From Microvirga massiliensis (lineage in GTDB: Bacteria; Pseudomonadota; Alphaproteobacteria; Rhizobiales; Beijerinckiaceae): DNA of 64,000 bases. Positions 35,626-42,603 of the stretch are shown piece by piece. The stretch's first letter is position 1; every line of letters starts with the position of its first letter. A model generated the notes under the pieces. The model ran no database searches and was not told the origin of the DNA. It was given only the letters and a program-made list of their open reading frames with translations. The stretch is taken from assembly GCF_001006805.1 (NCBI RefSeq), contig NZ_LN811354.1, positions 1 through 64,000 of the forward strand, read 5' to 3'. The position numbers and the translations under genes are program-made.

Positions 35626-36765
35626 TCACAGAGCGAGCGGCAGTTGCCGGACTGCGGGCTCTTCGTCGGTGTTCAGCGACGACAGGGTGACCCCGAGGAG
35701 GCGCACGCCTTTGCGCATCGGAAGGAGCGCAGAGAGGAGCTCCAGGCTAATCATCTCGAGCACCGATCGGCTCTCGACAAGGTCGCTCAAAGAGCGGCTG
35801 CGCGTGATCTGCTCGAAATCCGCGAACTTCACCTTCAGGGTAATCGTCCGGCCACGAGTGCCCGCCTGTTCACAATGCCGCCAGACCTTGTCGAGGATCG
35901 GCTGAAGCTCGACCCGCATTTCCTCAAACTGGGTCAGATCCTTCTCGAATGTGTTCTCGGCCCCCACCGATTTGCGGATCCGGTCCGGGCGGACCGGGCG
36001 CTGGTCGATGCCACGGGCAATCGAATGATAGTAGGTTCCGGCCTTGCCGAACCGCTCCTGCAGGAAGGCAAGGGTCTGGGCCTTCAGATCGCTTCCGGTG
36101 AAGATTCCGAGCCGGTTCATCTTAGCGGCGGTGGCGGGGCCGATGCCGTGGAACTTGCCGACCGGAAGTGCCTCGACGAAGGCGGGTCCCATCTCGGGCG
36201 TGATCACGAACAGCCCATCCGGCTTGCGTTGGTCCGAGGCCATCTTGGCCAGGAACTTGTTGTAGGATACCCCGGCCGAGGCGGTGAGATGAGTCTCTTC
36301 CCGGATCCGGGCCCGGATTTCCTGCGCGATCCGGGTAGCAAAAGGAATGTCCTTCAGGTTCTCCGTCACGTCGAGATAAGCCTCGTCGAGCGAGAGCGGC
36401 TCGATCAGCGGTGTGTATTCGGCGAAGATCTCCCGGATCTGGCGTGAGATCGCCCGATAGACGTCGAAACGGGGCGCCACGAAGATGAGATCCGGGCATT
36501 TCCGCCGGGCGGTGACGGAGGCCATCGCGGAATGGATGCCGAAGCGGCGGGCCTCGTAACTTGCTGCCGCAACCACCCCACGCGCGCGTGAACCACCGAC
36601 CGCGACGGGCTTGCCGCGCAGTTCCGGACGGTCGCGCTGCTCGACCGACGCGTAGAAGGCATCCATGTCGATATGAATGATCTTGCGCGGTCGCTTCAGC
36701 GCGCTGCTTCCCGTCTCGGCAGCATCCGGGAGGGTGTCGGACGGAGCGTGGTCGAACTTCGACAT
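35626..36765 (-). CDS. dinB: DNA polymerase IV (Y family)
   Basis: Pol IV is a low-fidelity translesion polymerase. From the ATG at 36765 it has 379 residues: catalytic D33 in IHIDMDAFYASVEQ, D127/E128 in PLSLDEAYLDVT, the helix-hairpin-helix GKFHGIGPATAAKM and a little-finger domain. It ends RQLPLAL, which matches the beta-clamp-binding end of E. coli Pol IV (QLVLGL). The frame extends 40 codons upstream into the yedK gene without family similarity. It lies 64 bases after the SRAP gene on the same strand, behind a LexA box, so SOS induction is likely. Confidence 0.93.
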   Translation of the reverse strand: MSKFDHAPSDTLPDAAETGSSALKRPRKIIHIDMDAFYASVEQRDRPELRGKPVAVGGSRARGVVAAASYEARRFGIHSAMASVTARRKCPDLIFVAPRFDVYRAISRQIREIFAEYTPLIEPLSLDEAYLDVTENLKDIPFATRIAQEIRARIREETHLTASAGVSYNKFLAKMASDQRKPDGLFVITPEMGPAFVEALPVGKFHGIGPATAAKMNRLGIFTGSDLKAQTLAFLQERFGKAGTYYHSIARGIDQRPVRPDRIRKSVGAENTFEKDLTQFEEMRVELQPILDKVWRHCEQAGTRGRTITLKVKFADFEQITRSRSLSDLVESRSVLEMISLELLSALLPMRKGVRLLGVTLSSLNTDEEPAVRQLPLAL

Positions 36766-36829
36766 CTTCTCGTTCAGGCCGGCACGCCAACTTTCGGAGG
36801 CTGCTCCAACCATTGCAGCCTGGTCCGCG

Positions 36830-37492
36830 CTACGCTGCGATGCCATCCGACCGCTCGCCTCGGGCGACGATCCGGAGAGCATCATCCGGGAGCGGGCGCT
36901 GGAGTTTCAGCGCTTCTTCGGCCGGTGCAGTCATCCAGGTCTCGAACTCATCCTCGTCCCTGAGAATGACTGGCATGGCCTTGGGGTGAATGGGACCGAC
37001 GACACCGTTGGCATCGGTCGTCAGAAAGGCGAACAGGTTCGCGTTCACCTCGCCCTCCTTGATCTTTCGCACGGACGTCCAGTTGGTCCAGATCCCGGCG
37101 AAGAACAGGAGAGGGCGCTCCTCATTCGCGGCGAACCAGACCGGCACTTTCCTGCCGTTGGCCCCGGTCGCATATTCGCTGAAGCTCGTGAAAGGCACGA
37201 GACACCGGTTCTCCACGCCGAGCCACCTGCGCCAGTGTGGCGACTTCACGTTCCGCACGTTCGTGACGCCCGGATCCGTGCTGCGGCCCTTGAGGGCAAA
37301 GGCGGGCGAGGGCATCCCCCAGCGCAACATCGCGAGTTCCCGCACGCCATCCTGGGCCGTGCGCACGACCGGGGCGGCGGTATCGGGAAAAATTCCCGGC
37401 ATTATCGGCAGGTTACCCGTCGTATCCCGCATTGCCTTCGACAGCTGCCGAATGGCGTCCTGGCTCTTAGTCAGGGAATAGAGATTGCACAC
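36830..37492 (-). CDS. SRAP domain abasic-site protein (YedK/HMCES type)
   Basis: SRAP proteins cross-link through Cys2 to abasic sites in single-stranded DNA and shield them during replication. The start is set by function: GTG at 37492 encodes Met followed by Cys2 (CNLYSLTKSQ), with GGAGG nine bases upstream. The 220-aa product then has NVRNVKSPHW, VPFTSFSEYA (catalytic Glu region) and the active-site His in GPIHPKAMPVIL. It lies between a small protein whose 3' end overlaps its start by 26 bases and dinB, forming one SOS-type unit. Confidence 0.9.
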   Translation of the reverse strand: MCNLYSLTKSQDAIRQLSKAMRDTTGNLPIMPGIFPDTAAPVVRTAQDGVRELAMLRWGMPSPAFALKGRSTDPGVTNVRNVKSPHWRRWLGVENRCLVPFTSFSEYATGANGRKVPVWFAANEERPLLFFAGIWTNWTSVRKIKEGEVNANLFAFLTTDANGVVGPIHPKAMPVILRDEDEFETWMTAPAEEALKLQRPLPDDALRIVARGERSDGIAA

Positions 37493-37721
37493 CGGTGAAT
37501 ACCTCCGGGCTCCTGAGGCCGGATCCGGCCGGATTGGCCTTCCCGCGCGAAAACCTCCCCCGGATATAGCCGAAGGAGAGCAGGGACCGAGCCTTCGCGA
37601 GCTCGGACTCGAGAGAGGCATTGGCGATGACGAGCGCCTTCACGGCTGCTCGTACATCACCATCACAGGCTGAGATCGCCTGATCCGGCGCCTCCTCGAG
37701 GCATTCGATGTCGTTCGTCAT
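37467..37721 (-). CDS. small protein leading the SRAP-dinB unit
   Basis: The product has 84 residues from the ATG at 37721 (a start 16 codons upstream is possible). The core, AISACDGDVRAAVKALVIANASLE followed by LSFGYIRGRFSRG, looks like a helical conserved domain; I know no function. Its stop lies inside the SRAP coding region, so translation of the two is coupled. A GTTC-N7-GTTC box lies 75 bases upstream. Confidence 0.62.
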   Translation of the reverse strand: MTNDIECLEEAPDQAISACDGDVRAAVKALVIANASLESELAKARSLLSFGYIRGRFSRGKANPAGSGLRSPEVFTGVQSLFPD

Positions 37722-37795
37722 GGCAGGCTCGGGCACATGGGTCTCCGTCGGTTTCCAGAATGCTGCCAAGACTCGCTCCGGCAGGCGAGTACTTT

Positions 37796-37810
37796 GTTCT
37801 CTTTTCGTTC
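37796..37810 (-). promoter_or_regulatory. LexA box (alphaproteobacterial type)
   Basis: GTTC at 37796-37799, seven bases, GTTC at 37807-37810; on the transcribed strand this reads GAAC-N7-GAAC. This direct repeat is the established LexA operator of alphaproteobacteria (GTTC-N7-GTTC). It lies 75 bases upstream of the small protein-SRAP-dinB unit, whose members act in DNA lesion tolerance. Confidence 0.72.
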
Positions 37811-37891
37811 GCTTATCTGTGGAAGCGAAGCGAAGAAGTCCGCTCGCTCGGACGGCGCATCTGCGGCGTCGCTGGCAGCCGATAAATGCGC

Positions 37892-41111: not shown

Positions 41112-42206
<1,095 letters not shown>

Positions 42207-42453: not shown

Positions 42454-42603
42454 TCAGGTCCAGGCTTCGGAAGCACAGACCAGCGTGAAGAGTCCGATGA
42501 CGCCGCCGAGTTCTGCGACCGTTCGCAGAACGGGGACCGGATCGTCCGACAAGTAGGTCCATCCGCCGAGTGCGAGAACGATGAGCGAGGCCCACAAAGC
42601 CAT
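42454..42603 (-). CDS. 49-aa membrane protein under an EcfG-type promoter
   Basis: The small product has two hydrophobic stretches (ALWASLIVLALGGWTYL and LGGVIGLFTLVCA) joined by an acidic turn (SDDPVPVLRTVAE), so it is likely a two-helix inner-membrane protein. GGAG seven bases upstream sets the ATG at 42603. A consensus general-stress promoter (GGAAC-N16-CGTT) lies 36 bases before the start, which greatly strengthens the call for such a short gene. The function is unknown. Confidence 0.65.
   Translation of the reverse strand: MALWASLIVLALGGWTYLSDDPVPVLRTVAELGGVIGLFTLVCASEAWT

Follow-up and report, generated by a model that had tools for sequence, protein, structure and literature searches.

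A LexA-type box precedes an uncharacterised small gene, SRAP and DNA polymerase IV in Microvirga massiliensis and recurs with the small gene in Hyphomicrobiales

The locus described here raises the question of whether a LexA-type operator and the three genes that follow it form one dedicated unit for tolerating DNA damage, or whether the operator goes with the first of these genes, which encodes a small protein with no accepted family name. The window (the whole stretch of DNA analysed, 64,000 nucleotides of Microvirga massiliensis contig NZ_LN811354.1) was originally predicted to hold an exact alphaproteobacterial operator, GTTC-N7-GTTC, ahead of co-directional genes for an uncharacterised 84-aa protein, an SRAP/YedK protein and DNA polymerase IV, which together were read as a dedicated SOS operon.

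All three genes are located on the reverse strand. The small gene occupies 37467..37721 and encodes 84 aa if translation begins at the ATG at 37721; this start is uncertain because translation could also begin at a TTG (37769) that has GGAG 6 nt ahead of it, a better ribosome site than that of the ATG, and would then give a product of 100 aa. The description of the protein as uncharacterised held (no Pfam or NCBIfam match was accepted), while its predicted length may have to be revised accordingly. The SRAP (YedK-like) gene lies at 36830..37492, with a GTG start, GGAGG upstream and Cys2, and its start (37492) overlaps the end of the small gene by 26 bp, which puts a figure on the overlap that had been noticed before. 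The SRAP domain (PF02586) was matched at E 6.4e-26 (91.6 bits against a curated Pfam cut-off of 27.1), and the VCN start (Cys2), TNVRN, SFSEY and IHP motifs are kept; by our own motif-level matching, these would supply the Asn, Glu and His of the YedK active site. DNA polymerase IV (DinB) at 35626..36885 was identified by its IMS domains (Pfam; PF00817, E 1.3e-54, 184.6 bits; IMS_C, E 1.2e-24) and by the NCBIfam equivalog PRK02406 (486.1 bits, cut-off 256), and its true start may lie downstream of 36885 because the match to the family does not start until about residue 65. The second and third genes were thus correctly named in the original prediction, both scoring above the Pfam cut-offs. Across the 9.17 Mb of the window genome, two SRAP genes and four Y-family matches were found. 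The overlap of the first two genes would suit a leader cistron, a small ORF that couples or tunes SRAP translation and whose product does little, but the protein is conserved as a family throughout the order and in most cases is not encoded ahead of SRAP, and we hold this explanation to be very improbable.

The operator was confirmed by exact pattern match at 37796..37810, where it reads GTTCTCTTTTCGTTC on the forward strand (GTTC-N7-GTTC) and GAACGAAAAGAGAAC on the reverse (gene) strand, and both the word and its position are conserved upstream of homologues. It lies upstream of the small gene as predicted, with 74 rather than 75 bases between it and the ATG at 37721, and is only 26 nt from the alternative TTG. 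The bare pattern is not significantly enriched in the window (3 occurrences against a shuffle mean of 1.75, with 30/100 shuffles reaching 3), which would agree with a chance match in front of genes that are outside LexA control. This box, however, also fits the strict motif described below and sits where homologous genes carry one, and an accident of that kind is scarcely credible. Two further occurrences of the bare pattern, at 41424-41438 and 42510-42524, do not fit the strict motif and are probably due to chance. Located 6 nt upstream of the box, at 37817..37824 on the reverse strand, is TTCCACAG, the remnant in the window of an 18-bp element, TTTCCCCRCATTCCACAG, which 28 promoters of the genus share some 6-23 bases before their LexA-type box and which could be a promoter element or the site of a second regulator.

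Genome-wide, the bare pattern was matched 335 times in 9.17 Mb, compared with 186 times for the reversed pattern. The strict form GAACRWANNNNGAAC, which was written after the boxes of relatives had been seen, gave 35 sites in the window genome against 6 control matches, and one of these sites precedes recA (L236, with recA confirmed by Pfam). ORFs were read beside 30 of the 35 strict sites, and by our own reading the neighbours included ssb and uvrA (divergent), two imuA-like genes, two DnaE-type polymerases, dnaB, three RecD2-like helicases and Ku. The one imuA-like protein tested had no Pfam match. The gene list is not clean, since no repair gene is evident at other sites and lexA could not be recognised beside any of the 30 boxes examined. 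Among 61 genomes compared, the strict count exceeded the reversed control in 37/37 genomes of the genus (window genome included) and was not above it in 6 of 24 genomes from outside the genus (G299, G300, G304, G305, G307 and G317). PMC3323433, PMC12700426 and PMC9578287 report GTTC-N7-GTTC as the LexA operator of alphaproteobacteria or of Caulobacter; the window shares this operator type with the alphaproteobacterial LexA regulon, and the small-protein family was not found in the parts of the published accounts examined. Taken together with the position of the box, we consider LexA control of the window operon highly probable. An 87-aa protein whose C-terminal part is CxxC-like is encoded twice (L217, G000 C2:314195, and L232, G000 C6:9761), each time with a strict LexA-type box 17 bases from the start; the copy tested had no Pfam match, and the protein is possibly another small SOS protein.

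The small protein was present in 22/298 genomes of the family sample at E 0.001 (window genome included), in at least 90/397 sampled genomes and at least 19/137 genera of the order when a 22-row profile was used, and in at least 7/387 genomes of the class, five of which belong to the order (window genome included). Order and class tallies are lower bounds because few candidates per genome were scored (up to 14 and up to 15, respectively). The two class matches outside the order were weak, lay inside large frames and were counted as noise. A paralog in the window genome was matched at E 0.08 by single sequence and at E 9.6e-14 by profile, and has its own box. None of the 22 family members had a Pfam or NCBIfam match over cut-off. 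UBA_HYPK matches stayed below the gathering score (4/22 members at E <=0.1, best 0.0019, the window protein having none) and may be taken only as a lead. The best hit among solved structures, at E 0.056, was not usable, and an AlphaFold model from two sequences consisted of one helix (3-57) with a pLDDT of 63.8 and a pTM of 0.37. No paper on the small-protein family was found by title in an open-access library, although this was a general-word search made without the sequence and is weak evidence of absence.

Plasmid records from Bradyrhizobium, Mesorhizobium, Microvirga and Ancylobacter, some of them typed conjugative, also contain copies of the small protein, and one copy lies beside insertion-sequence genes and another near a gene called psiB. 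For one genus member (L313), 400 bases of the locus were matched exactly in a plasmid record of Microvirga ossetica, from which the genus was taken to be Microvirga. The plasmid and element placements favour a family carried by mobile SOS cassettes, which would serve to maintain plasmids or elements and not to repair host DNA. Such a role is improbable in our judgement, given that a genus-wide version stands behind a conserved promoter in 22 other genomes of the genus and that the window protein had no match among phage records at E 0.1. A phage origin was rejected on the latter result, and two other family-type queries against viral contigs found no relative.

Conservation of the box was followed at 147 small-protein loci, consisting of 140 regions, L001, five plasmid loci and the window; the 140 regions were made up of 26 of the 28 other family-sample places, 113 places from the matches listed in the order search and the paralog of the window genome. 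An exact box was found near the start (between 250 bp before and 30 bp after the estimated domain start) in 103/147 loci. Controls on the same loci gave 0 downstream, 2 far upstream and 1 with reversed words, while spacings of 4, 5, 6, 8, 9 and 10 gave 0, 1, 4, 1, 2 and 4, and random stretches of these loci held a box in 163/13,499 cases. By set, the box was present in 75/113 (L102-L214), 22/27 (L075-L101) and 6/7 (others). The idea of the box arose from the family-sample loci and L102-L214 were fetched afterwards; 30 order-search loci, some from the same places as L102-L214, had already been looked at before that test. Loci of related genomes are not independent, and at 60% identity they fall into 26 clusters, 20 with at least one box and 17 with a box majority. 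Because most sampled relatives carry their own box, the small gene looks like an overlooked SOS gene in its own right.

Within the genus, the exact box was present at 28/28 other small-protein loci from 22 genomes, with 19 at exactly 74 bases from the estimated domain start, 27 within 67-75 bases and one at 174. Loss of the box position in close relatives would have spoken against the original prediction, and the box was kept in all 28 loci and its position in 27. When the 28 loci were aligned on the box, the commonest base averaged 74% over the spacer, 61% over the 45 positions upstream and 72% over the 75 positions downstream; the eight core bases are invariant in this alignment because all 28 loci have an exact box. 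TTGAC was present at most 35 bp upstream of the box in 54/103 boxed loci (reversed word, 0), an arrangement that would place the box over the core promoter in these loci; the genus promoters have TTTCCCCRCATTCCACAG instead. The remaining 44/147 loci had no exact box near the start. An S-x-G-Y-x-R tail was present in 26 and absent in 18 boxless loci, compared with 81 and 22 boxed loci. A Bradyrhizobium-type subfamily with neither box nor tail was observed at L120, L126, L130, L133, L137, L142, L145 and L160.

The neighbours of the small gene were more variable. Counting frames of at least 170 aa only, SRAP was present in 27/147 loci (window included), downstream on the same strand in 11, divergent in 10, otherwise near in 2 and farther away in 4. 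Eleven of these 27 loci also had a further small gene belonging to either of two kinds (7 and 4 loci), which in five loci (L072, L100, L101, L103 and L110) lay between the small gene and SRAP. DinB was present in 3/147 loci (the window, L090 and, at 30% identity, L072), and therefore SRAP, not DinB, is the recurrent partner; enrichment of SRAP was judged by eye, against two SRAP genes in 9.17 Mb. Neighbours were clustered by single linkage on raw ORFs, which included some false or antisense frames. In this raw clustering, a second unnamed small protein (TYYVAMPF...GDFxDAxLLRKFG), which had no Pfam match, adjoined the small gene in 23 loci (for example L119, L132 and L154). On a plasmid of Bradyrhizobium sp. 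195 (L070), a small SOS-type gene was observed beside an opposite-strand Ku gene, with ligD nearby.

At the 28 other small-protein loci of the genus (three cut short by contig ends), SRAP was found within about 1.5 kb in 0/28 and DinB in 1/28, and among the 30 closest DinB loci of the genus SRAP adjoined DinB only in the window and a box lay within 450 bp in 1/30. The closest 30 SRAP loci of the family sample, window included, had DinB downstream in 8 (the window and 7 others with SRAP and DinB adjacent on one strand), the small gene in 3 and an exact box (900 bp upstream to 100 bp in) in 4; the full combination of box, small gene, SRAP and DinB occurred only in the window. A fixed small protein-SRAP-DinB trio was consequently rejected, the exact trio being found only in the window among the loci examined, and the dedicated unit of the original prediction is not upheld. 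Of the gene order and box that were to be looked for in other Hyphomicrobiales, the box recurred and the order did not, and in these comparisons the box goes with the small gene rather than with the trio.

The usual separation of the small gene from repair genes, as in the genus, would also fit an SOS checkpoint factor, that is, a brake on division or replication like SulA, SidA or DidA whose place before SRAP-dinB is incidental, and small LexA-controlled inhibitors are known in Caulobacter. Linkage to SRAP nevertheless recurs across the order, and no Pfam or NCBIfam match connects the protein with a known inhibitor family. We regard a checkpoint role as conceivable but rather unlikely.

Operons of SRAP and DinB are already known, and the small protein is the new point. 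SRAP occurs in an operon with DinB in an SOS neighbourhood according to PMC3765255 (2013), and the window resembles these operons, with SRAP and DinB consecutive on one strand and SOS-type control over both. It differs from them in its first gene, which encodes a small protein from a family without a name and has the box ahead of it; the main text of that paper does not use the term 'small protein'. The same source describes YolD as an SOS factor that is little understood and occurs with UmuC. In Bacillus, YolD resembles the window protein in being encoded by a small SOS gene that precedes a Y-family polymerase, but none of the 22 family members had a YolD Pfam match at E 0.1 and the family is mostly not beside a polymerase. 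A further parallel was seen in wider stretches from four genomes (L284-L287), which have a box 2.2 kb ahead of SRAP-DinB. In L284 and L287, which belong to another genus of the family and in which the ORFs were read, the first gene is not the small protein but a 689-aa helicase (UvrD by Pfam in L287) that fills the gap between box and SRAP, and an imuA-like gene (own reading; no Pfam match) lies divergently on the other side of the box. No box was found upstream in the SRAP-DinB stretches L288, L289 and L290.

The box, the gene order, the small-protein family, the conservation of the box and the linkage to SRAP are read from the DNA itself. From these we infer LexA binding, induction, co-transcription and enzyme activities, and we consider it likely that the window holds a LexA-repressed operon for DNA-damage tolerance whose three products, the small protein, SRAP and Pol IV, are expressed jointly. 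LexA would bind the direct repeat at the operon promoter and repress it, and upon damage RecA-stimulated cleavage of LexA would free the promoter, so that all three proteins would then be produced. At stalled forks, abasic sites in single-stranded DNA would be shielded by SRAP, and the bypass of other lesions would fall to Pol IV. From family knowledge, action of SRAP and Pol IV in lesion tolerance is very likely, and co-transcription of the three genes has a good probability. The LexA control and lesion-tolerance function of the original prediction find support in the recA box of this genome and in the SRAP-DinB SOS neighbourhood of PMC3765255. The role of the small protein is a guess; tentatively, it may be a soluble protein that assists or regulates events at damaged forks, or a helper of SRAP.

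Beyond the window, the small-protein family would be a usual LexA target, standing in most sampled loci behind its own box, either alone or beside SRAP or other small genes. We somewhat favour the reading that LexA repeatedly controls this undescribed, order-restricted family in Hyphomicrobiales, in some genomes with several members and on both chromosomes and plasmids, and that with its SRAP link it would be a new SOS effector, perhaps a helper in abasic-site shielding or fork restart. Many SOS genes outside model bacteria have no known job, and a small gene whose SOS box holds its position within a genus and recurs in an order, and for which Pfam and NCBIfam have no accepted family name, offers geneticists working on rhizobia and Microvirga a compact target. 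The link to SRAP points to a possible partner for the bacterial abasic-site shield.
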